Source of the DNA: a virus
Length of the DNA: 20,450 nt
Virus record (IMG/VR): IMGVR_UViG_3300006802_000778
Coordinates: 1 to 20,450 of that record
Direction: 5' to 3' (one strand)
A program made the position numbers and the translations under genes. Within the stretch, counting starts at the first letter, position 1. Each line of letters begins with the position of its first letter. The notes under the pieces were generated by a model. That model did not search any database, had not been told where the DNA came from, and saw only the letters and a list, made by a program, of their open reading frames with translations. Of the stretch, positions 1-20,450 are shown one piece after another.

Positions 1-2922
1 CAGCCGGACCTTGCCCTTGGGGCGAACGTTGGGCTCACGGCTGGCAACGCAACTCTGACGCTTACGGGTAATGCCCCTAGTGTTGTGGCGAGCGCCAACA
101 TTGAGCTTGCAACCTCCTCTGCCTCGCTAACACTTACGGGGTACACTCCGTCCGTCGCGTCTGTCGTTCCGGCTCCGGCGTCAAACGTATTTGCGGAACC
201 GTCAAGCGCATTGCTTACGGCGGTTGGCTACGCACCACAGGTAGCCTTTGATAACAACGTCACGCTGTCCCCGTATGTCGCAGACCTGACGCTATCCGGC
301 TATGTGCCCACGGTAGACATCAGCACCGGCATCGGGTCTTCTGTTATCCTGACCCCGGCGGAAGCTAGCCTGTCGGTTACAGGGTACACGCCGTCTGTTG
401 GTATTGGCGCAAACGTTTCACTTAGCACCGGCAACGCATCTCTGACGCTTACGGCGTATGCGCCCACCGTAAGTGCAACCGCTTCTGTTGGCGTAACACC
501 GTCCACAGCTTCTCTTGCGGTTACGGGTTACGCCCCCACGGCAACGGCAAGCGCAAACGTTTGGTTAACGCCGTCTGCCGCCTCTTTGTCAATTACGGCG
601 TACGGCCCCGTTGTATCATACTCCAGCGGCTATGAGTCGCTGTACCCGGATGCAATCATTTCGCAGACCGGATCAACGGGTGCGTACACGGACATTGACG
701 ATGATCCAGACAGCCCAGACGGACTATGGCTGACCACCACGGCGCAGAACGGTACGCTTCGTGTGTCGTTCCCAACGCCGTCCGCAAATCTGCGTACCGG
801 AGCTGGGCTCCAGCAGTTCCGGGTTTATGTGCGGAAGGTGGACAACACCGACACCCCGTCCTCCGGTGGTGGTGATCCTACACTAAAGATCTCCGTTCGT
901 GAGACGGGTGGCAGCTCAGACCTTGCTGCTGGGTCCACCGATATCATCTCCAGCACTACCGGCGTTGTTGCCACGTTTGACTGGAACGCATCAGTACTTG
1001 CTAGTATTGATGGATCCGGCGTTGAGTGTTACTGCGTCACAACGGGCGACGGCGTAGGCGAGACTGATGAGCGCCGTGTCCAGATTGGCGCGGTGGAGTG
1101 GGTTGCGGCAACCGTTACCACCACGACGGTCCAGCCTTACGGTGGCTCTCTCACCCTGACGGGCTACGCCCCGACGGTAGACGCTTCTACAAGCGCAGCG
1201 GTAACGCCATCCACCGCATCCCTGACGGTCACCGGCTACGCACCGTCCGTAACGGCGTCCGCAAATACGGCACTTGCACCATTTGCCGCTGTCCTGTCGC
1301 TTCGTGCTGGGCAAAACATCTTCCAACGTTCGGAAGAGTTTACCAACACTTACTGGGGAAAGCGGACCGGCGTTGTCCTGACCGCAAACAGCATTGCGGC
1401 ACCCGACGGGGTTGTCAGCGCAACCAAACTTGCCACGGACTCAGCGGGTGGCACGGCAGAGCAGACAATCTACCGTTCTCCTCCTGCCACAACGTTTAGC
1501 CCCTACACTTTTAGTGTATACGCAAAGGCAGACCAAACCAGTCTTCTCTGCGTTGGGAACACGGGGTACGGTTCTCCTGACGGGTGGACATACTTCGACT
1601 TAAGTGCTGGAACCGTTGCACAAGCGGACAGCGAACACACGGCGTCTATCGTTGACGTTGGCAACGGGGGGTATCGCTGCGTCATCTCAACAACGCTTAC
1701 GACGGACAGTTCTGGGTTCTGGCTGTTTGGACTTGCGTCTGGCGTTGGGACGCCAACCGTCACAAGAGACGGCAACTCGTCTGTTTATGTCTGGGGTGCC
1801 CAGCTACAGGATGGGTTGAGCGTTGGTGCGTACAACAAGACCACCACCGCAGCAATCACGTTTATCCCAACTATTGCGGCGACCACCAACGCAGCCGTTA
1901 CCCCGTCTACGGCAAGCCTTGTTGCCACGGGCTACGCGCCGTCGATTGCGGCCAACGACAGCGTAACCCTTGTACCGTCTAGCGCGGTCCTGACGTTTGC
2001 CAGCTACGCCCCGACGCTCCTGCTTGGTGTCAACACCTACGCCTACCCGTCTACGGCCACGCTGTCGCTGGTTTCCGGCCACAACATCCTGCCCTATTCG
2101 CAGGAGATCGGTAGCTGGACCAGTCTGGGTACGTCTACCGTCACCGCAGATGCTGCCACCGCACCAGACGGAACCTTTACCGCCGATATCGTCAACTCGC
2201 GTGGCGGTGTTTACACTTGGCAAAAGACGCCGTACCAGCAAGTTACGGGTACCCTTGGTGGCGATTACGTCGTCAGCGGGTATTTCAAGTACACAACGGG
2301 TGGCGCATGGCCCGCAGCACAGTATGCGTTCCTCGCTTTCTGGGACGGTAATACGGCGTATGCGTGGTCATATTTCGACATACTAAACGGTACATTCCCG
2401 TTTGACTGGTTTGGTTCCGGTGGTGGCAGTGTTACTCCTTTTGGCTACGTTTCGGAAGACGACACCACCATTGAGGATGTTGGTGACGGCTGGTACCGCT
2501 GCACCCTGCGGGTTAGGCACACCGTTACCTACCCGCTCCCAACTACGGCATACGTAGTAATCGGCGGCGACTCAAACACCAGCGGTTATGGCACCTCTAG
2601 CTCTAGTCGCAGCGTTTTGGCTTGGGGTGTTCAGGTTAGCTGTGAGAGCCGTAATACGGGCGGTACCGTCGCTGCGCCGCAGTACATTGCGACGACCTCC
2701 TCTATTGTTGACTATAGACCGTCTGTTTCGTCTCAATACATTGTAGCTCCGTCGTCAGCCGAATTGCTATTGGTTGGCGTTGAGCCGTTTATTGTAAACT
2801 CTGGTGTTGTAGATTCTATCTCGCCACGCGATGAAAGAAACGCCAACGAGATTGTAACCGCACAGAAAGCCAACCACATTGTAGTAACAAGAACTGCCAA
2901 CCGCCGACAAGGAACAGTTTAA
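1..2922 (+). CDS. Tail-fibre-like beta-repeat protein with inserted lectin-like domains (5'-partial)
   Basis: The frame is open from the first base of the window, so the start lies further left; the in-frame GTG at 85 sits inside a repeat and is not a convincing start. The visible 973 residues contain about 14 copies of a 22-25-residue beta repeat whose core reads like TPSTASLTVTGYAPTV. Three larger domains interrupt the array. The first (about nt 625-1119) begins at YESLYPDA. The second (about nt 1312-1848) starts NIFQRSEEF and ends VYVWGAQLQDG. The third (about nt 2080-2709) starts NILPYSQEI and contains VLAWGVQVS. The last two have the N-L-x-x-S-E-x-F ... W-G-A-Q-L-E pattern common in phage receptor-binding and head-fibre lectin-like domains. 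Inferred role: virion surface adhesion. The stop overlaps the next ATG by one base (TAATG). The family is recognised by pattern only, and a head fibre or other decoration protein is possible. Confidence 0.7.
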   Translation, partial: QPDLALGANVGLTAGNATLTLTGNAPSVVASANIELATSSASLTLTGYTPSVASVVPAPASNVFAEPSSALLTAVGYAPQVAFDNNVTLSPYVADLTLSGYVPTVDISTGIGSSVILTPAEASLSVTGYTPSVGIGANVSLSTGNASLTLTAYAPTVSATASVGVTPSTASLAVTGYAPTATASANVWLTPSAASLSITAYGPVVSYSSGYESLYPDAIISQTGSTGAYTDIDDDPDSPDGLWLTTTAQNGTLRVSFPTPSANLRTGAGLQQFRVYVRKVDNTDTPSSGGGDPTLKISVRETGGSSDLAAGSTDIISSTTGVVATFDWNASVLASIDGSGVECYCVTTGDGVGETDERRVQIGAVEWVAATVTTTTVQPYGGSLTLTGYAPTVDASTSAAVTPSTASLTVTGYAPSVTASANTALAPFAAVLSLRAGQNIFQRSEEFTNTYWGKRTGVVLTANSIAAPDGVVSATKLATDSAGGTAEQTIYRSPPATTFSPYTFSVYAKADQTSLLCVGNTGYGSPDGWTYFDLSAGTVAQADSEHTASIVDVGNGGYRCVISTTLTTDSSGFWLFGLASGVGTPTVTRDGNSSVYVWGAQLQDGLSVGAYNKTTTAAITFIPTIAATTNAAVTPSTASLVATGYAPSIAANDSVTLVPSSAVLTFASYAPTLLLGVNTYAYPSTATLSLVSGHNILPYSQEIGSWTSLGTSTVTADAATAPDGTFTADIVNSRGGVYTWQKTPYQQVTGTLGGDYVVSGYFKYTTGGAWPAAQYAFLAFWDGNTAYAWSYFDILNGTFPFDWFGSGGGSVTPFGYVSEDDTTIEDVGDGWYRCTLRVRHTVTYPLPTTAYVVIGGDSNTSGYGTSSSSRSVLAWGVQVSCESRNTGGTVAAPQYIATTSSIVDYRPSVSSQYIVAPSSAELLLVGVEPFIVNSGVVDSISPRDERNANEIVTAQKANHIVVTRTANRRQGTV

Positions 2923-3287
2923 TGTCTAGAGGAAATCGTCAAGCAGAAGACCAGTTCTACGAAAAGCGGCGAGCCGAAACGCGCAACTATACGCTAGACT
3001 GGTCGCGGGAACTGGATACGGGTGAAGCGTTGAGCGGAAACCCCACCGTCACCGTTGTAAAAATGACGGGCCAGACCGCCACAGATGCCTCAAGCGAACT
3101 AAACATCAGCAACCAAACTACATCTGGCACTAAGTCCGTGTGGACGTTTGGCGCAGCAACGACTGGTGAACAAGACGAGGACGATGTTTACTACGTTATC
3201 GTAAAACAATCAACAGACGCATCACATACATTTGAGTCTATTCACCGGCTATATATTTATGAGTTCGGTGATAGTACGGCACCATGA
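2922..3287 (+). CDS. Small Ig-like structural protein, Gp77-like fibre/tail adaptor candidate
   Basis: 121 aa, starting in a TAATG overlap with the fibre gene. The N-terminal 25 residues are charged and followed by RNYTLDWSREL, then beta-rich sequence (PTVTVVKM, ELNISNQTT, VYYVIVKQ) ending IHRLYIYEF. The pattern of an early YxxDW motif followed by an Ig/BACON-like sandwich is typical of small phage proteins next to tail fibres, annotated in some phages as Gp77-like or fibre-tail adaptor proteins. Role inferred from pattern and position: it probably links the fibre to the tail or decorates the virion. No catalytic motif is visible. Confidence 0.5.
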   Translation: MSRGNRQAEDQFYEKRRAETRNYTLDWSRELDTGEALSGNPTVTVVKMTGQTATDASSELNISNQTTSGTKSVWTFGAATTGEQDEDDVYYVIVKQSTDASHTFESIHRLYIYEFGDSTAP

Positions 3288-3637
3288 TTACAGATAAACG
3301 CCTAGCGGACTTACAAAGTGCCTTGACTAAGAGCGGTAGCACTCACGACATTGATGATGTCTTGACCAATGTTATGAGCGGTCACGCCCAACTCTGGGAA
3401 ACCGACACCGCAACAGTCGTTACACAGATTGTACAGCATCCAAACTATCGCAGTTTTAATGTTTGGTTGGCTGGCGGCGATCTCACGGGTGTCCTAAGCC
3501 TTCTAGAGGAAGGCGAGGAATACGCAAAAGCCAACGGCTGTTCGACCATGGAGGTCACAGGCCGACGGGGCTGGAAGCGAATCCTCGCGCCTCACGGTTT
3601 CCACGAAGAAGCTGTCGTGCTTCACAAGGAGTTATAA
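3284..3637 (+). CDS. GNAT-like acyltransferase of the phage structural module
   Basis: 117 aa. The ATG overlaps the stop of the preceding gene (ATGATTACA at 3284, TGA at 3285-3287). The order is typical of short phage GNAT-like proteins: N-terminal helix MITDKRLADLQSAL, LWETDTATVVTQIVQHP, the strand RSFNVWLAGGDL, a helix LLEEGEEYAKANGC, then TMEVTGRRGWKRILAPHGF and the final strand AVVLHKEL. The GRRGW turn and the G-F-x-E-E-A-V-V end match the acetyl-CoA-binding part of the fold. Such proteins recur in podovirus genomes between fibre and internal-protein genes. Whether it is catalytically active and what it modifies are unknown. The stop overlaps the next ATG (TAATG). Confidence 0.6.
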   Translation: MITDKRLADLQSALTKSGSTHDIDDVLTNVMSGHAQLWETDTATVVTQIVQHPNYRSFNVWLAGGDLTGVLSLLEEGEEYAKANGCSTMEVTGRRGWKRILAPHGFHEEAVVLHKEL

Positions 3638-4380
3638 TGGGCAAGTCAACCACTTCGCAGACCCTCAAAGCCGACCCGGCGCTTCGTAGCCGTGGTCTAG
3701 GAATGTACGATGCTGCTTCTGGGTACGGCGGCAGCGGATCCTCCTACGCCCCCCAGTACGGCGGTTTCTTGGGTAGTGCCGTTGGGAAGCTTGGTTTGGG
3801 CGGTGGCGGCTACGGCGGTGGCGTTCCCCCGGTCTCTACGGAACTCACGCAGGACGAGCAGTTGGCCCGTGAGGGGTTCCGCTCCATGTCCGATATGCCC
3901 GGATACTTCAGCCAGAACATTGGGGCGTACATGAACCCCTCTACTGGCGAAGTGATTGATTCAACCATCGCGGACCTCAACCGCGCCAGACAGATGGCAA
4001 ACGTTGACGCTGCCGGGTACGCCACTAGGGCTGGTGCCTTTGGTGGAGATCGCGCTGCCATACTAGAGGCAGAAAACAACCGGAACTACCTTGAATCTGC
4101 CGCACGGTCTGCCGCGCAACTGAGGTCAGCCGGGTTCGATCAGGCTAGCCGCAACCTCTATCAGGGACTGGGGCTGCAAACCGGTGCATACGGCAACCTT
4201 GCCAGCCTTGGCGCTATGGAGCGGCAGATCCCCATGCAGTATTACGACTTCCTGAGCGGCCTACTGAGCCGTGTACCGGGCAACACCACGGAGACAATGA
4301 CGGAAAACGGTAGCCTACTTGGTGGGCTTGCCGGTCTAGCCGGTACGCTTGGTGGGGCATACATTGGGAGAAAGCGATGA
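3637..4380 (+). CDS. Putative internal virion / DNA-ejection-module protein (247 aa)
   Basis: The chosen start is the ATG at 3637, which overlaps the previous stop (TAATG) and is preceded by AAGGAG; a longer frame from 3463 runs through the acyltransferase gene and is rejected. The N-terminus is Gly/Ser/Tyr-rich. It is followed by the block IGAYMNPSTGEVIDSTIADL (about residues 90-110), then AGAFGGDRAAILEAENNR and AARSAAQLRSAGFDQA, and a glycine-rich hydrophobic tail (GGLAGLAGTLGGAYIG). The YMNP...DxTxADLxR...AGAFGGxR...E pattern is a recurrent podovirus protein upstream of the internal-protein genes, usually unnamed or called a DNA-transfer/ejection protein. It overlaps the next gene by 4 nt (ATGA). 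Role inferred. Confidence 0.5.
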   Translation: MGKSTTSQTLKADPALRSRGLGMYDAASGYGGSGSSYAPQYGGFLGSAVGKLGLGGGGYGGGVPPVSTELTQDEQLAREGFRSMSDMPGYFSQNIGAYMNPSTGEVIDSTIADLNRARQMANVDAAGYATRAGAFGGDRAAILEAENNRNYLESAARSAAQLRSAGFDQASRNLYQGLGLQTGAYGNLASLGAMERQIPMQYYDFLSGLLSRVPGNTTETMTENGSLLGGLAGLAGTLGGAYIGRKR

Positions 4381-5624
4381 TGAGCCCTAAGTATCCATTC
4401 CAAGTTTCTAGGATGGTTGGTGGCGCTCTTCCACGGATCGGTCAGGCCGTACTGCAACAGCAGCCTCAGCCCCAGATCCAGCAGCCCCAGTCGATGGGGG
4501 GGCGCATCCAAGGTATTCTTAGCACCCTACTGGGGGCACAGAATAGGTCAGAACTTAGCAAGGGTCTGCTTGACTTTGGCTCCCGCATGATGGCTGCGAG
4601 TGCCCCCGGTGGTGCTGGCAGCTTTCTGGGCGCTCTGGGTCAGTCGCTTCCCGCCACCCGTCAGACGCTTGAGGGGCAGCGCGATCAACAGATGATGCTG
4701 GACGCGCTCCCGGAGGAGTTCAGGAAGTTCGGACTCGCTGGCGCACAGATGTATATGAATATGCTGGGTACCCAAACACCTATGGGCGGTAGCGTTTATG
4801 GTACTGGCGGGTGGTCTACCCCATCCCCACTTCCGCCGGAGTCGCCGGATTACGTTGATCCGGGTAGGTTTTTCCAGCAGTCAATGGCAACGCATGACAT
4901 TCCGACCATGGAGACATACTTCGGTCTGGACCCAGAAACACAGGCCAGTATATCGAACTTTGCGGTGTTGTTGGAGCAGCGCATGGAGTCCGCAAGGAAT
5001 GCGGGTACTAATCCAAGACTTGATGCTATTACAAAGCTCGACGCCGACAAGCTTGGCGAACTCCGCTCCGCTGCGCAGGGCGCACAAAATCAGGAGCCAA
5101 TGCTAGAGGCAATGGAGTATTACGCATCCAACCCGGAGATTTACCAAGGTCAGTTTGCGGATTTCAAGCTTTCTGCGGTTAAGCTGGGTCAGGCGCTTGG
5201 TCTGCCGGTTGACGAGAACACGGGACAGGCGGAAGCGTTCAGGCAACTTAGTTCTGAGCTTGCGCTCTACTACCGGAACCCAGAAAGCGGCTTTGGTATG
5301 CCCGGTTCGCTGTCTCTGGGAGAACTGGCGTTCCTAGAGGCAATGGTTCCGGGTATCAAAAACACTCAGGCCGGTAACCTTGCCATGGTCCGGTTCTTAC
5401 GTGCGGTTAATCGCAGAAAGGTGCTCTTGGCTCAGGCGGCACAACGGCACTTTGTAAACGGCGGCTCACTTAACGATACTGGGTGGTATGAAGTTGCGCG
5501 ACAGATCTCCAGAGAAAACCCAATAATTGATGGGGTTAATTTCGACGAATGGGAGTCTGGTCGTGGAAAAGCACCAGATTGGGCAGAGGCGGCGGTGAAC
5601 GACACCTCTTCAATTCGCGAATAA
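4377..5624 (+). CDS. Putative internal virion protein (415 aa)
   Basis: Starts in an ATGATGA overlap with the previous stop. Residues 25-45 are Gln/Pro-rich (QQQPQPQIQQPQ). They are followed by a helix with LLDFGSRMMAASAPG and FLGALGQSLPATRQTLEGQ, then a mostly helical, soluble body. The FGxxMMAAS-x-PG...FLGALGQ element recurs in the second protein of podovirus internal-protein modules. There is no signal peptide, nuclease or lytic-transglycosylase motif that I can see. It lies between two proteins of the same module and is translationally coupled to both, so a role inside the capsid or in genome ejection is inferred from context. The stop overlaps the next ATG (TAATG). Confidence 0.45.
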   Translation: MMSPKYPFQVSRMVGGALPRIGQAVLQQQPQPQIQQPQSMGGRIQGILSTLLGAQNRSELSKGLLDFGSRMMAASAPGGAGSFLGALGQSLPATRQTLEGQRDQQMMLDALPEEFRKFGLAGAQMYMNMLGTQTPMGGSVYGTGGWSTPSPLPPESPDYVDPGRFFQQSMATHDIPTMETYFGLDPETQASISNFAVLLEQRMESARNAGTNPRLDAITKLDADKLGELRSAAQGAQNQEPMLEAMEYYASNPEIYQGQFADFKLSAVKLGQALGLPVDENTGQAEAFRQLSSELALYYRNPESGFGMPGSLSLGELAFLEAMVPGIKNTQAGNLAMVRFLRAVNRRKVLLAQAAQRHFVNGGSLNDTGWYEVARQISRENPIIDGVNFDEWESGRGKAPDWAEAAVNDTSSIRE

Positions 5625-7447
5625 TGGACCCCGAACTTCAAAAACAGCGCGGTATTGTAAGCACAATGAAGGCACAGGGGCGCAGCTACGACGCCATTGT
5701 GCAGTATCTACGCACACAGGGGTACGAGTCCGTGGATGCGTGGAATGAGGCGGTTGACAGGGCCGACGCAGCGGTGGCACAACCTGAGCGTCAGCCCCCA
5801 CAGCGCCAACCGGGCATGACTGGAATGGCGGCGTTCGGCGCGGACCCGAACTACTTCAATGCGCTTTCCGGTGCAACGAGGGACGTTGTTCGTGAGATGG
5901 CCCAGCCCGTCACGCTTGGATACGCAGACGAGTTGGAAGCAAGGGCAAGGGGTATTCCGTATGAGCAGATTGCCGCAGAACGTGCCGCTGTCCCGACGCC
6001 AGTCCGGGTAGCAGCGCAAGCGCCCGGAATGGTTTTGGCGGGCTTGGGAAGTGGTGCGCTTACACGGGCTGCTATTCCCGCTGCCGCTTCTGGACTGCGA
6101 AGCACCGCTACCGCGCTGGGTTTGGCTGGTGCGGAGGGGTACCTTTACGGCACGGGCGCGGCAGATCCCGGTCAGCGGATGGAGGGTGGCAAGACCGGCG
6201 GGTTGACGGCTTTGGCCTTTGGTACACCGTTGGTTGGCCTTGGGCACCTTGGACAATACATCGGTAAGCAACGGGATATCGCAAAGGGTCTCATTGACGC
6301 CCCGGATTTTCTTGCCAACGAAGTTGGTATTACGCCAACGATGTTTGCGCCAGAGGCGGGGATGACCCTTGCGGAGACTATGGGTCCTCGTTTTGGCGGC
6401 TCGCTTCTCAGATCGGCTACGTCGGGCATTGATAATCCTCAACGGCTTAAAGATGTTGAGAGCTTTCTTGTAAGCCGCCAGAGAGGCGTCCCAGCTAGGC
6501 TGGGGCAAGCTGCGGACGTCCTGCTACCGGGTACTAGTGCCGGGAACAGGACTGGCCCTGCTCAGGCAATGTACAAAACGCTGGATCCGCAGGAAGTGCC
6601 GGAAAACGTACTGGACGCCCTCATGGGCGTGGAGAGGTTGACCGAAACCTCTGGGATCGGCACCGGCATGGCGTCAAGGCATGGCGCAAAGCTTGGCGGC
6701 TATCAGCTACCAAACAGGGCGGTAGAGATTGGCCGTGATACCGGCGGCGTTTGGCAGCAGCCACGGTCTGCGACATGGGAACAGGCCATGGAGACGCAAA
6801 GAGGTATTAAAGAGATGACGCCACCATTGCCGCTGCAAAAGGCCAACACGGCTCTTCGTGAGGCAATGATTGAGGCGTCTCCGGTATATGCAGAAGCGAA
6901 CGAACTGTACCGCATTGGCAAGACCGTGGAACTTGTTGACAATGCGATCAATAAGGGCAACGCCGGTAAGGTGATTTCTGCGCTTCGTGCGCCACAGATT
7001 AGTCAAAGGATTGCGGCTGACTTTGGTGAGGAAGCTGCGGCTGGCTTTGCAAAGCTCTTGAATGACGGAGAGACAATCTACGATGTGTCCAAGCGCGGAC
7101 TACAGGGCGTAGAAACTGCCGGTGGTGCCATGACTGGTCGCGTGTACGACCAGATGAAGGGACTGTTCACGCAGGGGCTGACGGCAGTTGCGTACGCGCT
7201 CAACAAGATGTTTGGTGCGTCTGCGCGGACGATGATTCAGGCCAACCTCAGCGGTAGTGCTGGTGGGCGACGGCTGGCCAATGAGTTGATTGACATCCTC
7301 AACATGGAGTCTACTGCTGCTCAAGGTCTTCTAAGAGAGGCCAGCGAAATACCCGGAAAGATTGCAAAGGCCAACGCATTCAGGTCTGGCCTCTTGGCTA
7401 GTGTTGGTGGGCAACTTGGATCTAAGGGACTTCTTGGAGGGCGGTAA
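5624..7447 (+). CDS. Large putative internal virion / ejection protein (607 aa)
   Basis: The start is the ATG at 5624 in a TAATG overlap with the previous stop; an in-frame extension from 5549 lies inside the previous gene and is rejected. The N-terminus (MDPELQKQRGIVSTMKAQG) is helical. Residues about 75-110 read like VREMAQPVTLGYADELEAR, with PYEQIAAERAA shortly after. Residues about 130-185 are Ala/Gly-rich and mildly hydrophobic (MVLAGLGSGALTRAAIPAAA, GLAGAEGYLYGTGAA). The order G-x-x-DEhEA ... PGxxLA-G-G ... A-x-G-x-L-Y-G-x-G is common to large podovirus proteins believed to form the ejected internal core. The C-terminal third is helical and ends glycine-rich (GGQLGSKGLLGGR). No enzymatic domain is recognised. 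Confidence 0.5.
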   Translation: MDPELQKQRGIVSTMKAQGRSYDAIVQYLRTQGYESVDAWNEAVDRADAAVAQPERQPPQRQPGMTGMAAFGADPNYFNALSGATRDVVREMAQPVTLGYADELEARARGIPYEQIAAERAAVPTPVRVAAQAPGMVLAGLGSGALTRAAIPAAASGLRSTATALGLAGAEGYLYGTGAADPGQRMEGGKTGGLTALAFGTPLVGLGHLGQYIGKQRDIAKGLIDAPDFLANEVGITPTMFAPEAGMTLAETMGPRFGGSLLRSATSGIDNPQRLKDVESFLVSRQRGVPARLGQAADVLLPGTSAGNRTGPAQAMYKTLDPQEVPENVLDALMGVERLTETSGIGTGMASRHGAKLGGYQLPNRAVEIGRDTGGVWQQPRSATWEQAMETQRGIKEMTPPLPLQKANTALREAMIEASPVYAEANELYRIGKTVELVDNAINKGNAGKVISALRAPQISQRIAADFGEEAAAGFAKLLNDGETIYDVSKRGLQGVETAGGAMTGRVYDQMKGLFTQGLTAVAYALNKMFGASARTMIQANLSGSAGGRRLANELIDILNMESTAAQGLLREASEIPGKIAKANAFRSGLLASVGGQLGSKGLLGGR

Positions 7448-7459
7448 CCGCCAAAGGCA

Positions 7460-7768
7460 ATGGTCTTGAGACTACCAACCAAAGAGGGTGCAGAAGTTCA
7501 CTTGGAGCTTCCAAGTGGTTTTGTTGCTGGTGTAATTGGGCTGCTAGGCATTCTTGTCTCGTTTATGTCATGGACAGCCATTGAAGTTGTTCATAACTCG
7601 CGCACAATTATAAACCACGACACTAGACTAAATTACATTGAGGAAAGCCGGTTCACGGAATCTGATTTCCGCAACCAGTCTACTTCTTTTGTTAGTATTC
7701 GTGAATACGAAGCGCTATCGCAACGATTGGATAGGATAGAAGATAAACTTGACCGCGCATTGAGGTAA
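7460..7768 (+). CDS. Single-TM coiled-coil membrane protein, holin-like candidate
   Basis: 102 aa with an ATG at 7460, 12 nt after the previous stop; the A/G-rich CAAAGGCA lies just upstream. A short charged N-terminus is followed by one transmembrane segment (about residues 20-44, FVAGVIGLLGILVSFMSWTA). A soluble, charged C-terminus follows, ending in a heptad-like helix (EYEALSQRLDRIEDKLDRAL). One TM plus a coiled coil fits several small phage lysis or membrane-anchoring proteins, and the next gene also encodes a tiny membrane protein. The holin role is inference from size, topology and position. A membrane-docked accessory virion protein is an alternative. Confidence 0.45.
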   Translation: MVLRLPTKEGAEVHLELPSGFVAGVIGLLGILVSFMSWTAIEVVHNSRTIINHDTRLNYIEESRFTESDFRNQSTSFVSIREYEALSQRLDRIEDKLDRALR

Positions 7769-7772
7769 CGCC

Positions 7773-7943
7773 GTGCCCGATCAATCACCTCTTTTCCACA
7801 AGCCGTGGGGCTGGCCGGAAATGCTAGTCATCCTTGTGTCGCTTGTGTTGGTTGATTTCTTTACGGAGAGGCCTCTGCTGCCGTTTTTTTCCGGCTATAT
7901 TGACGCAGTAAGAGATCTTGTTCTAACGCTAATCTCACGTTAG
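7773..7943 (+). CDS. Tiny membrane protein (56 aa, GTG start)
   Basis: GTG at 7773 preceded by GAGG at 7762-7765 with 7-nt spacing; the SD lies inside the last codons of the preceding gene. The reading frame runs 56 codons to TAG at 7941. The product starts PDQSPLFHKPWGWPEM, has one hydrophobic segment (about residues 17-29, MLVILVSLVLVDF), and ends with the amphipathic stretch YIDAVRDLVLTLIS. It fills the otherwise empty gap between two genes and is probably real. It has no recognisable family. It could be a lysis-cassette partner (holin/antiholin or pinholin-like) of the preceding membrane protein; that is inference only. Confidence 0.55.
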   Translation: MPDQSPLFHKPWGWPEMLVILVSLVLVDFFTERPLLPFFSGYIDAVRDLVLTLISR

Positions 7944-7952
7944 GCAGACTAA

Positions 7953-8678
7953 GTGAACCATACTTGGTGGGTATCCAACCCGGGACCCGATAAGCCGTGG
8001 TGGACCCGTGGTAGCACGGCCCCCGTTGTGCCAGCGAGAGACCGTGATCGGGTGATTCCGCGCACCCCCGTGGCTGAGGCTATGTACTCCGGTGACCCAT
8101 CCCGGTTGCTTGATCTCGCCAAGAGCGCCGCTGGGCTGGCCGTGGATTTTTCCCCGCTTGGTGACGCGAAAGCTCTCCTGTGGGACGCGCCCAGAGAGTT
8201 TGTTAGCGGACATCCGGGCATGGGCTTGCTTGCGCTTGCGTCTGCCGTCCCCGGCATCCCCGGACTGCCACGGATTATCCTCGCTAACCCTTCATCTGTG
8301 CCTCGTCTTTCGTCTGAGACGTTTAGGGGCGTGACCGGAAACAAGGATCACATAACAATGGTGGAGAGGGGCACAATTCCCACGGATGCGCTTGCTGATC
8401 TGCGTGGAGCCAAAGGTGAGGTGCGTGGTGCCCACAGAAACAGGCTTGGCGCAGACTGGGACAGTTTCAAGGCAGACATATCAGATCGCGGAATACAGGA
8501 GCCGTTGTTTGTCACCGTTGATTATGACGGGTCTCCACTAATTGCGGAGGGGAACCACAGGCTTGATGCCGCGCTAGAACTTGGACTTGCGGAGGTCCCG
8601 GTGGAGATTAGGTATTTTGGCAATGCTCAAAATCGCGGCACCGTGTTCGACAGGTTCCTAGAATACGGTCGGCGCTAA
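7953..8678 (+). CDS. ParB-like domain protein at the end of the virion operon
   Basis: 241 aa with a GTG start at 7953 and a weak TAGG SD in the preceding stop region. Residues 1-40 are basic and Trp/Pro-rich. Residues 60-107 (LAVDFSPLGDAKALLWDAP, then AVPGIPGLP) resemble the linker that precedes C-terminal effector domains in polymorphic toxins and some phage structural proteins. Residues 140-225 form a ParB/sulfiredoxin-like fold: a helix with DSFKADISDRGIQEPLFVTV, then PLIAEGNHRLDAALELGL and VPVEIRYF. The GNHR box at 200-203 corresponds to the GERR-type phosphate-binding box of ParB-like nucleotidases/nucleases. The function is unproven: virion-delivered DNA-binding protein, nuclease or toxin-like effector. 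The stop codon interlocks with that of the convergent gene. Confidence 0.55.
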   Translation: MNHTWWVSNPGPDKPWWTRGSTAPVVPARDRDRVIPRTPVAEAMYSGDPSRLLDLAKSAAGLAVDFSPLGDAKALLWDAPREFVSGHPGMGLLALASAVPGIPGLPRIILANPSSVPRLSSETFRGVTGNKDHITMVERGTIPTDALADLRGAKGEVRGAHRNRLGADWDSFKADISDRGIQEPLFVTVDYDGSPLIAEGNHRLDAALELGLAEVPVEIRYFGNAQNRGTVFDRFLEYGRR

Positions 8679-17906: not shown

Positions 17907-18490
17907 CAGCGGTGGTGCTGGATGAAAAGAGAAATCGCGATGGTGCGATCATTTTCGGTCATGGGTCTACCCAAGTGCTCCGCGAATCCGTCCACGACGC
18001 CCCCAGCGATAATCGCGCAGCGGAGCATCAAGTCTTGATCTGCTTGCAGCGGCGTCCCGCTCGCCTGTGCGACGGTGGGCTGCGACACGATACGTCTAGC
18101 CGCCTCATTGACCGGAGCGAGGTCAAGCTCTCTCACCGCAGCCTGTACCGTCTCAGCCGGGAACACCAGCCCCTCCTCATCTTCAAGCGTCAGCGCGGGG
18201 TGTTCGCCCACAAACGTGGCGGTGGCGAGAACCCACCCGCCCTTGGTCGCCTTGATCTGAGACTCCATTGTCGGCCACCATTCCTCGCTGGGGGGCGCAT
18301 CCTTCCCCGGCTTGAACATATACTCGCCACTCGTATCCCCGTGGACCTCAAACCCCGCGAACGGCCCGTACTGCCCGTCCCCCGTCTTGCCCCAGCGGAC
18401 CAAGAGTGGAGCGTCCTTCGTGTGGTACCAAAAGTTCTTGAAAGAAATATTCTTGATGCGCTGTCCGTTAGAGCCCGTGAAAGTTACCAT
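17906..18490 (-). CDS. Hypothetical protein (194 aa)
   Basis: ATG at 18490 with GGGGG 6 nt upstream, overlapping the HTH gene by 23 nt; a TTG extension to 18535 is rejected. The N-terminal half is beta-rich and aromatic (KNISFKNFWYHTKDAPLLVR, GPFAGFEVHGDTSGEYMF, GGWVLATATFVGEHPAL). The C-terminal half is helical (QDLMLRCAIIAGGVVDGF, NDRTIAISLFIQHH). It lies in the promoter-proximal part of the leftward operon, before the nuclease genes. An OB-fold-like DNA-binding role is conceivable but no motif supports it; treated as unknown. Confidence 0.6.
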   Translation of the reverse strand: MVTFTGSNGQRIKNISFKNFWYHTKDAPLLVRWGKTGDGQYGPFAGFEVHGDTSGEYMFKPGKDAPPSEEWWPTMESQIKATKGGWVLATATFVGEHPALTLEDEEGLVFPAETVQAAVRELDLAPVNEAARRIVSQPTVAQASGTPLQADQDLMLRCAIIAGGVVDGFAEHLGRPMTENDRTIAISLFIQHHR

Positions 18491-18668
18491 GGTTTGCCCC
18501 CTTGCTGAGTTGGTTGATGGTTTCGGGTAGTGCAAGCTCGTACACTTTGGGGAGCGGCGTTTTGCGCTCTACGTACAGCCATTGCCGTGTGTGCCCCCAT
18601 GCGGCTGCGAGTTGTGCGCCGCTAATCCCCCAAGCTGCGGCGGCTTCGATTGCTTCTCGTTTTGTCAC
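18468..18668 (-). CDS. Small helix-turn-helix regulator candidate (66 aa)
   Basis: GTG at 18668, with GGAG 8 nt upstream directly after the previous stop; a frame open to 18782 lies within the upstream gene. TKREAIEAAAAWGISGAQLA, then AAWGHTRQWLYVERKTPLPK, has the two-helix layout of small Cro/YdaS-like HTH proteins. The tail is polar. It could regulate the nearby divergent control region. HTH call by pattern only. Confidence 0.5.
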   Translation of the reverse strand: MTKREAIEAAAAWGISGAQLAAAWGHTRQWLYVERKTPLPKVYELALPETINQLSKGANHGNFHGL

Positions 18669-18874: not shown

Positions 18875-19090
18875 TTACTTCGCCTCTCTAGTGTGGATCA
18901 GGATCCTCAGTTGCGTGATTGCCTCAACCGCCTCGTTGATGCCCCCGTGGAGTCCGGGTACATGAGCCCACAGCGAAGCGTCTGCCGCCTCGCACAGGAG
19001 CTTGCGAGCGTCCCAGAGGCGCTGGAGCGCGATGTCACGGCTCTCGTCCCGCTTGTCGGCAAAATAGTCCAGCACTTCGTGGCCGTTCAT
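18875..19090 (-). CDS. First gene of the leftward operon, small helical protein (71 aa)
   Basis: ATG at 19090 with a strong GGGAGG 5 nt upstream, about 45 nt after the predicted transcription start of the promoter at 19143-19171. The protein is helical and charged (GHEVLDYFADKRDESRDIA, LWDARKLLCEAADASLW, NEAVEAITQLRILIH). No domain recognised. Position at the head of the operon makes it a probable early, host-directed protein. Confidence 0.6.
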   Translation of the reverse strand: MNGHEVLDYFADKRDESRDIALQRLWDARKLLCEAADASLWAHVPGLHGGINEAVEAITQLRILIHTREAK

Positions 19091-19142
19091 GGGACCTCCC
19101 GTTGGTGATAAAATTTACAAGAAAGCGCCGTTACACGCTACC

Positions 19143-19171
19143 ATTCTACAGGCACCCTCTCCCGGTGTCAA
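19143..19171 (-). promoter_or_regulatory. Leftward sigma70-type promoter of the long operon
   Basis: On the - strand TTGACA (19171-19166), a 17-bp spacer and TAGAAT (19148-19143): perfect -35 and 5 of 6 for -10. Transcription would begin near 19136, giving a 5' UTR of about 45 nt before the ATG at 19090. This is the only strong promoter seen for the leftward genes. The 28-nt operator-like module ends 31 nt upstream of the -35. Confidence 0.7.
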
Positions 19172-19202
19172 CACATTTGTCAGCCTATTTTCCATGCGCG
19201 GG

Positions 19203-19230
19203 AACATTGTTACAGTTTAGGCACACCTAA
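19203..19230 (-). promoter_or_regulatory. Operator-like module, copy A
   Basis: Read on the - strand it begins TTAGGTGTGCCTAAAC and continues TGTAACAATGTT. It shares 23 of 28 positions with copy B at 20309-20336. Its palindromic half has 7-bp arms, GTTTAGG / CCTAAAC on the + strand (19215-19232), spacer CACA. The palindrome ends 12 nt before the + strand ATG at 19245, next to its SD. It could therefore control the divergent + gene as well as the leftward promoter. Confidence 0.6.
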
Positions 19231-19244
19231 ACAACGGAGGTCGC

Positions 19245-19724
19245 ATGGCTGGGGGCAGAAAAATCTACGAGGCACGTATCGCACAGCTAGATGACATGGG
19301 GGTAGAGGAGGTATTCCGGCTGTATCTTGAGCATGGCACTGTCAAGGCGCTTGTGTCGTCGCTGTGGGAGCCAGCGCACGAAGGTCAGCAAGTTGGTGTG
19401 TCTGCGCTGTACGGTTGGCTGGATCGCAACCCGGCTGCGAAAGATGCGTGGCGAAGGCTGCGGAAGATGCGCGGGGATATGGATGCAGACGAGGCTGTGC
19501 ATATCGCAATGAATGCGACGCAGGAAGACTGGCAAGCCAAGAAGCTACAGGTGGAGACCCTAAAATGGAGAGCAGGGGTCAATAATCGGGAGGACTACGG
19601 CACCGGCGTGGATGCCGTCGTCTCGACGCTGGGTCAGGCGATTCTCCGGGCGATCACGGCAGCGGAGCAGCAGGAGCGTCTACCGGTACCCGCAACTGAC
19701 GCAGAATACGAGATTGAGGAATAG
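19245..19724 (+). CDS. Terminase small subunit-like DNA-binding protein (159 aa)
   Basis: ATG at 19245 with GGAGG upstream. The N-terminus has an HTH-like region (DDMGVEEVFRLYLEHGTVKA, VSALYGWLDRNPAAKDAWRR). It is followed by the typical TerS helical block: MDADEAVHIAMNATQEDWQA, LQVETLKWRAGVNNREDYG. The acidic C-terminus (DAEYEIEE) follows an oligomerisation-type helix (AILRAITAAEQQERL). TerS proteins bind pac/cos DNA and hand it to the large terminase. No large terminase is in the window, so a dedicated regulator with the same fold cannot be excluded. The non-coding region immediately downstream could be its packaging target. Confidence 0.65.
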   Translation: MAGGRKIYEARIAQLDDMGVEEVFRLYLEHGTVKALVSSLWEPAHEGQQVGVSALYGWLDRNPAAKDAWRRLRKMRGDMDADEAVHIAMNATQEDWQAKKLQVETLKWRAGVNNREDYGTGVDAVVSTLGQAILRAITAAEQQERLPVPATDAEYEIEE

Positions 19725-19790
19725 GGGGGGGCGTTTGCACAGAGAATAGGTTCCGATTGCGCAGAGAACCGTGTGCGAGCGAACCCCCAG

Positions 19791-19836
19791 TTTCAGGGCA
19801 AAAAAAATCACCCCTTCGGAAGCTTCAGCCCTGAAA
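19791..19836. repeat. Inverted repeat after the TerS-like gene
   Basis: Perfect 9-bp arms TTTCAGGGC (19791-19799) and GCCCTGAAA (19828-19836) around a 28-nt interior that contains A8 and a short TTCGGAA turn. It lies 67 nt after the TerS stop. It could form a long stem that ends + strand transcription inefficiently, or a cruciform. Confidence 0.5.
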
Positions 19837-19848
19837 TGTTGCGTCTGC

Positions 19849-19870
19849 AATAGTTGACGCTGCAACTATT
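19849..19870 (+). terminator. Possible weak terminator hairpin
   Basis: Perfect 8-bp stem AATAGTTG (19849-19856) / CAACTATT (19863-19870) with a 6-nt loop, followed by a pyrimidine tract TTCTCTTC. The stem is AT-rich, so an intrinsic terminator after the TerS-like gene would be weak. A binding site for a protein is the alternative. Confidence 0.35.
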
Positions 19871-19903
19871 TTCTCTTCGCCCATCGCGCAGCATACACGC
19901 AGC

Positions 19904-20003
19904 ATCGCCCGGGCAACCCGAACAAAAACCGAAACCCGCCCCGCGCGGGTTCGCAGCGTATCAGCAGGGTGGATCGCGCGGGTAAACCGAACAAAACCCG
20001 AAA
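19904..20003. repeat. 31-bp direct repeat, two copies 69 bp apart (iteron-like)
   Basis: Copies at 19904-19934 and 19973-20003 agree at 27 of 31 positions; the shared core is CCGAACAAAA followed one base later by CCGAAA. A 7-bp hairpin (AACCCGC / GCGGGTT, 19933-19951) lies between them. Further CCGAA units occur to about 20070. The layout resembles iterons of initiator-dependent origins. Confidence 0.55.
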
Positions 20004-20023
20004 GGGGGGCGGGGCTTGACTGC

Positions 20024-20039
20024 GTTGCGCCGACGCAAC
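20024..20039. repeat. Short hairpin GTTGCG / CGCAAC
   Basis: Perfect 6-bp arms (20024-20029 and 20034-20039) with a 4-nt loop CCGA. One of several stems in the non-coding region. Confidence 0.4.
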
Positions 20040-20244
20040 ACCGAAGCATTTCCCGAAGGAAACCCGAAATAGCCCTAAAAAGCCCGTAAAGGGCACTAGG
20101 AAGCACGACAACTCCTTAGGGCCACCGCCATACGGGCTGGGTCATCCTCGCAAGTTCCCCTTATTTCATGCGGGTTCCGAGCGGTTTTCCACATAGGTGG
20201 CACAATCCCTGCTGGGGTTCGCCAATTTCGCAGCTTATGCGCAG

Positions 20245-20279
20245 CAATCCGGGGGGCTACCCCCACGGTATCGGGATTG
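20245..20279. repeat. Nested hairpin in the non-coding region
   Basis: Outer arms CAATCC (20245-20250) and GGATTG (20274-20279) enclose an inner GGGGG (20251-20255) / CCCCC (20260-20264) stem with loop GCTA. A two-step stem or cruciform, 30 bp left of operator module B. Confidence 0.4.
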
Positions 20280-20308
20280 GGGGGGAGTGTCCACGCAATG
20301 ATTTGGAA

Positions 20309-20336
20309 TTAGGTAAGCCTAAATTGTAACAGTATT
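20309..20336 (+). promoter_or_regulatory. Operator-like module, copy B
   Basis: Begins TTAGGTAAGCCTAAA and continues with TGTAACAGTATT; 23 of 28 positions match copy A. Here the 10-mer ATTGTAACAG is repeated (20323-20332 and 20334-20343) with an 11-bp period, so two protein units could bind side by side on one face of the helix. The TTGACA at 20371-20376 begins 34 nt after the module. Confidence 0.6.
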
Positions 20337-20370
20337 GTAACAGCGTGGGGCTTTCGGGGTTTATTCGGTA

Positions 20371-20397
20371 TTGACAAGAAAAAATTCACAATAATTT
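20371..20397 (+). promoter_or_regulatory. Rightward promoter candidate for the gene at 20435
   Basis: TTGACA (20371-20376) is a perfect -35. The -10 is unclear: AATAAT (20390-20395) is 5 of 6 but only 13 bp away, TAATTT (20392-20397) has 15-bp spacing but a poor match. The A/T-rich stretch between them and the operator module upstream favour a real, regulated promoter. Confidence 0.4.
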
Positions 20398-20434
20398 GGA
20401 GCACGTTCACCACACCTCTCGAAAGGAGACCCAA

Positions 20435-20450
20435 ATGAGCAACGCCACCC
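20435..20450 (+). CDS. Start of a + strand gene (3'-partial, first 5 codons)
   Basis: ATG at 20435 preceded by AAAGGAG (20422-20428) with a 6-nt gap, the best SD in the window. Only MSNAT is visible, so nothing can be said of function. It is the first gene after operator module B. Confidence 0.7.

Follow-up and report, generated by a model that had tools for sequence, protein, structure and literature searches.

A conserved pair of inverted modules flanking the terminase small subunit gene of an uncultured podovirus-like phage lineage, and its predicted role as an operator

Gene organization of the locus

The stretch of DNA analysed here (the window) is a virus record of 20,450 bases, apparently a fragment. 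Rightward, structural-looking genes occupy positions 1–8678, followed by a leftward block (19090–8675) that includes a DnaB-like helicase, a replication initiator, a RusA-like protein and an exonuclease-like phosphoesterase. The first gene of this leftward arm (18875–19090, minus strand) encodes a protein of 71 amino acids with no family match. Beyond it lies the gene for the terminase small subunit (TerS; PF20901, Sf6-like; 19245–19724, plus strand), then 710 nt lacking any convincing gene, and finally the first gene of the right arm, of which only the start lies in the window (20435–20450, plus strand). The final 127 bases of the window recur exactly in the IMG/VR contig L031, which continues into the right arm; as this overlap resembles an assembly k-mer, L031 most likely belongs to the same phage. 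It carries, in order, the gene begun at 20435 (80 amino acids; L031 112–354), more small genes, and then genes for a phrog_2554 match, for a Cro/C1-type helix-turn-helix (HTH) protein at 2129–2329 and for TerL. The carrier appears to be a podovirus-like phage with two divergent transcription arms. The window DNA has no DNA match in INPHARED.

Two repetitive features were also observed in this phage. The leader and gene start at 20415–20450 (CTCTCGAAAGGAGACCCAAATGAGCAACGCCACCC) recur before a second gene in L031, repeats of this type being found in L031 at 408–450 and 677–691, the third time as ATGAGCAACGCCACC; the end of the window at the first CTCTCGAAAGGAGACCCAAATGAGCAACGCCACCC copy is probably an assembly break at a repeat. 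A large protein encoded at 85–2922 (plus strand) contains repeated ‘SLTLTGYAPTV’ units and has relatives in the related contig G001 (see below) and in an otherwise unrelated phage, G006.

The two modules

TerS is flanked by two 28-nt modules in inverted orientation: module A (TTAGGTGTGCCTAAACTGTAACAATGTT; 19203–19230, minus strand) and module B (TTAGGTAAGCCTAAATTGTAACAGTATT; 20309–20336, plus strand). Read as 19230–19203 on the minus strand against 20309–20336 on the plus strand, they match at 23 of 28 positions, exactly as originally predicted, coordinates and counts included. Each contains a palindrome, TTTAGG-n4-CCTAAA with arms of 6 + 6 at A (19216–19231) and TTAGG-n4-CCTAA with arms of 5 + 5 at B (20309–20322). 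Across the copies the four central bases vary (TGTG, TAAG, CTGG) while the arms stay constant, as would be expected for a dyad read via its half-sites. In module A, a TGTAACA element lies at 19208–19214 (minus strand); on the plus strand it is part of TG-T-TACAGT (19207–19216), a possible extended −10 facing TerS. The TTGACA hexamers beyond the modules were likewise found where predicted, 31 nt further on at A (19171–19166, minus strand) and 34 nt at B (20371–20376, plus strand), as was an extra repeat one helical turn along at B, where a second, tandem ATTGTAACAG (20334–20343, plus strand) begins 11 bp after the start of the first (20323–20332).

In 24 replicates of first-order Markov sequence, region pairs matching at 23 or more of 28 positions are expected approximately 0.1 times per window, and the window itself has two direct-repeat pairs that reach this level, so that the match between A and B is, taken alone, only moderately surprising. 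A palindrome-plus-TGTAAC pattern, which was derived from sites A and B themselves, matches only these two sites with up to three mismatches (none in 100 shuffles); with at most one mismatch, TTAGGnnnnCCTAA is also restricted to A and B in the window (0.27 expected). An RNA hairpin as the real feature was rejected: with folding z values of −1.5 at A, −0.2 at B and −0.6 in the related contig G003, and no Rfam match, a site acting at the DNA level is preferred.

Conservation in related contigs

The same TerS gene was detected in three other IMG/VR contigs, G001 (41,883 bases), G002 (13,628 bases) and G003 (8,368 bases). Inverted copies surround TerS in G001 and G002 as in the window, and the B copy is also present in G003. 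These contigs are approximately 99–100% identical to each other, and were therefore counted as one independent lineage; they show mostly 75–90% DNA identity to the window in aligned stretches. The evidence for conservation accordingly comprises two independent lineages. A 123-nt terminal overlap, together with the bridging of its ends by G002, indicates that G001 is complete, and the palindrome TTAGG-n4-CCTAA (one mismatch allowed) occurs in it exactly twice, 785 bp apart, flanking TerS, with one copy ahead of each of two divergent arms. These arms meet near 9.8 kb: the first runs from module A through the replication genes, and the second from module B through small genes, TerL, the portal and structural genes. 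The search for further copies suggested with the original prediction therefore returned two only in a complete genome, and the module is kept in a second lineage.

The two sides of TerS differ in how they have diverged. On the A side, the lineages hardly differ in the interval running from the TerS start up to and including the −35, and module A is 100% identical in G001 and G002. On the B side, the intergenic regions after TerS (710 nt in the window, about 390 nt in the relatives) barely align. Within them, a footprint test ranked the module first among shared 22-mers, at 19/22 where 400 null trials averaged 15.6 and never exceeded 18; its counterpart in G001–G003 is TTAGGCTGGCCTAAATTGTAACGATATT. 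Second came a −10/leader block (18/22), a score reached by 3 of the 400 null trials. For the differing occupancy suggested originally, the comparison adds no more than this: the tandem ATTGTAACAG copy is present in the window phage and absent from the relatives (G003 among them). The lineages differ by 12 bp in the distance from module to leader at B, and this copy makes up 11 of them. It is this comparison with relatives, rather than the match itself, that makes the module convincing: in all likelihood it represents a genuine cis-acting element, whatever its kind, and by sequence comparison it is a conserved, lineage-specific paired element of the cis-regulatory type.

Promoters associated with the modules

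The original prediction placed a promoter beyond each module, and the two fared differently. At A, the leftward promoter (PA) consists of a −35 TTGACA (19166–19171, minus strand) and a −10 TAGAAT (19143–19148, minus strand) separated by a 17-nt spacer, which agree with consensus at 11 of 12 positions. It reads TTGACG-17-TAGAAT in G001; the −10, the spacing and the distance to the module are kept in both lineages while the spacer sequence has changed, so PA is well supported as a predicted promoter. At B, the possible −35 of the rightward promoter (PB; TTGACA, 20371–20376, plus strand) is not conserved, relatives having TTGCGT, and a promoter scan found no −10 comparable to that of PA; a possible −10, TAATTT, with the leader TAATTTGGAGCACGTTCACCAC (20392–20413, plus strand) is conserved in G003 at 18 of 22 positions. 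The window modules lie 59–62 bp upstream of the −35. The palindrome is separated from the −10 by 82, 82, 83 and 71 bp, which would be compatible with placement on one helical face; as the B −10 was picked with the alignment in view, this lends weak support.

Other repeats occur close to these promoters. A further GTGTAACGsCG lies just past the PA −10 (19109–19139, minus strand) and is kept in G001 while adjoining bases change. A second repeat family, CCGAACAAAACCCGAAA, is present as three direct copies 66–69 bp apart after TerS (19918–20069), as an inverted copy directly before the PB TTGACA (20351–20369) and, ahead of TerL, as an array spaced at 11 bp (L031 3041–3117); it may represent another operator or an element used in replication.

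Occurrence outside the lineage

The module is absent from five annotated INPHARED phages with a related TerL (40–50% identity), and was not found in 152 loci with more distant TerL cousins (80 from IMG/VR and 72 from genomes; 1.69 Mb). The exact full pattern was not retrieved in any of 84,980 bacterial and archaeal genomes, a module-like BLAST query against phages and plasmids yielded partial matches only, and a scan for wider relatives of the left arm gave known contigs only. A loose pattern matched four IMG/VR contigs outside the lineage (L023, L025, L026 and L027), which is at chance level as the reversed-pattern control matched six; a strict form fits three of the four loose matches and none of the six controls. 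TTAGGC-n2-GCCTAAATTGTAAC occurs exactly in three IMG/VR phages that have no detectable regulator in common with the window phage, and no regulator shared between the four matched phages and the window phage was detected. In L027 this sequence lies 16 nt before TTGACA-17-TACACT, and in L026 it falls inside a GCCTmAATTGTAAC repeat array. That an undescribed regulator, perhaps one supplied by the host, might bind it at the control regions of several unrelated environmental phages is a long shot.

Several features of these contigs may be recorded separately. The L026 repeats (5745–5860; IMGVR 3300028388_004314) are spaced by about 22 bp within a large intergenic stretch and adjoin TTGTAACAATGTGCC inverted repeats, and this phage has a 44%-identical repeat protein in common with the window open reading frame at 85–2922. 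In L023 (5915–5936; IMGVR 3300009506_000027), one exact copy of the module shares bases with the end of a tyrosine-recombinase-like open reading frame, between convergent genes, where a promoter reading is not apparent.

Candidate regulators and known operators

A Cro/C1-type HTH protein (PF01381, over cut-off) was detected once in G001 and once in the continuation of the window phage, in the right arm in both cases, and is the best-placed candidate binder. The AlphaFold model of the window-lineage protein is good (pLDDT 88), and its fold search placed P22 c2 repressor–DNA complexes among the best PDB matches, none of which fell below an E of 0.001. Comparison of the lineages counts against this candidate: at 51% identity, their Cro/C1-type proteins have different recognition helices (TGNTVSNW versus TRKTVSLW), even though module A is identical. 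Among the binders proposed originally, the 66-amino-acid left-arm protein (18468–18668, minus strand) is nearly identical in G001, its HTH assignment is doubtful and its model (pLDDT 55) was too poor to use; the Cro/C1-type protein, encoded outside the window, is at least as good a candidate as those earlier ones.

The operator of P22 C2, CATTTAAGATATCTTAAATA, has the form TTAAG-n4-CTTAA, with a 5-4-5 geometry (PMC9976882). The modules resemble such operators in their 5-bp arms and variable 4-bp centre (TTAGG-n4-CCTAA at both sites in both lineages), in recurring within a divergent control region and, according to the model, in the P22-C2-like fold of a Cro/C1-type protein encoded by the phage. 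On geometry and fold, a P22-C2-like pairing of regulator and dyad may thus be predicted. In contrast to P22 and lambdoid phages, however, there is a single copy per promoter, the copies being 785–1092 bp apart and not forming an operator cluster, and the modules are located upstream of the outward promoters rather than overlapping them. They also carry an extra TGTAAC, and the candidate regulator gene lies inside the right arm. Unlike in a temperate immunity region, no tyrosine integrase (PF00589) was matched in G001 or in the continuation contig G009.

Activator sites of P2 Ogr and P4 Delta, of the form TGT-N12-ACA, are located upstream of phage promoters. Both window modules contain TGT-N12-ACA; however, it is missing from the B copy of G003, and its position near −80 differs from the −55 of those sites. 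As the motif is not conserved, this identification was rejected. The best Ogr_Delta score among the proteins scanned was 8.6 bits against a cut-off of 26.3.

Alternative explanations

The modules could instead be read inward, the opposite strand of TGTAACA forming an extended −10 with the palindrome over its start site. At A, with a start near 19222 (plus strand), TerS would thereby have a promoter and a leader of about 23 nt, under repression by the dyad-bound protein; at B, the product would be a leftward transcript heading toward TerS. Indeed, TerS requires a promoter within the 154-nt divergent region, a GGAGG at 19236–19240 would suit a short leader, the extended −10 reads TG-T-TACAGT at A (also in G001) and TG-T-TACAAT at B in the window, and the promoter scan of G003 B gives TTGGCG-18-TACAAT. 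However, the −35 partners are poor (2–4 of 6 matches), the TG is lost in G003 B, it is hard to see what a conserved leftward transcript starting at B would be for, and another extended −10 (TGATAAAAT, with TAAAAT at 19109) could serve TerS. Overall, we regard this reading as unlikely.

A host regulator such as a metal-dependent DtxR-family protein, which the phage would read to sense the state of its host, is a less probable binder still. The DtxR/IdeR iron-box consensus, a 19-bp dyad (TTAGGTTAGCCTAACCTAA), contains a similar core with TTAGG and CCTAA half-sites (PMC7762939), and the plasmid matches to the module-like query were partial haloarchaeal ones, one of them in an ABC transporter gene. 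Yet the dyad here is 14 bp long, only 13–14 of the 19 positions match by inspection, the outer CCTAA half is missing, and none of the bacterial and archaeal genomes searched contains the full pattern. No DtxR-family gene (PF01325) was matched in G001 or G009, so that such a protein would have to be the host's.

About as improbable is a function in packaging or replication rather than transcription, with TerS or the replication initiator as the binder of the sites. In headful phages, packaging sites are often in or near TerS; the modules flank this gene, and the B intergenic region holds other repeats too. Against this, the modules are oriented toward conserved promoter elements, and a better candidate packaging site is offered by the conserved CAGAGAAT-type repeats right past the TerS stop codon. 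TerS being similar in both lineages, conservation cannot separate these hypotheses. The CAGAGAAT-type repeats are found at 19738–19767 in the window and at 371–429 in L006, and G003 has three 18-nt copies, GTTACrCCAGAGAATCsS.

Finally, chance similarity of two unrelated sequences is hardly credible, despite the expectation of about 0.1 such pairs per window: B is kept independently within an otherwise diverged region, G001 has exactly two copies, and the 152 cousin loci hold no comparable inverted palindrome pair, the sole other hits being a directly duplicated one in L166 and one rich in A+T in L205. Barring a chance origin of the B copy in the relatives as well, these relatives refute this explanation.

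A predicted paired operator

With a conserved module present in exactly two copies in a complete relative, each lying ahead of one of two divergent arms, one common regulator is the natural reading. We give even odds to the modules being a paired operator, that is, two sites for one dimeric DNA-binding regulator. The original prediction coupled a leftward operon to the gene starting at 20435; the common regulator is retained, and what it would couple is extended to the two whole-phage arms.

The TTAGG-n4-CCTAA dyad would be bound by a helix-turn-helix dimer with half-site spacing of the P22 C2 type, most likely the right-arm Cro/C1-type protein, with TGTAAC possibly providing an accessory contact. 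The regulator would act about 88–91 bp upstream of the presumed starts, near 19136 (minus strand) and 20405 (plus strand), jointly on the leftward replication arm and on a weak rightward promoter, thereby coordinating both arms. As the modules are clear of the outward promoters, upstream action (activation, A–B looping) is more natural than simple occlusion; activation may be taken as a first guess, possibly with looping across TerS, just ahead of whose start codon the bound regulator would also sit. Several points weigh against the paired operator: PA appears strong enough without an activator, the elements of PB are poor or not conserved, and the TerL-cousin loci have no counterpart.

Overall, the paired element is real, probably a docking site for one control protein, and fairly ordinary in kind. 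In this uncultured, podovirus-like lineage it marks the apparent master control point, and here a regulatory module has been retained while surrounding genes and spacer DNA were exchanged. It also offers a testable pairing, of one small Cro/C1-type protein with two predicted sites, and may be of use for reading the control logic of metagenomic phages that resist culture.
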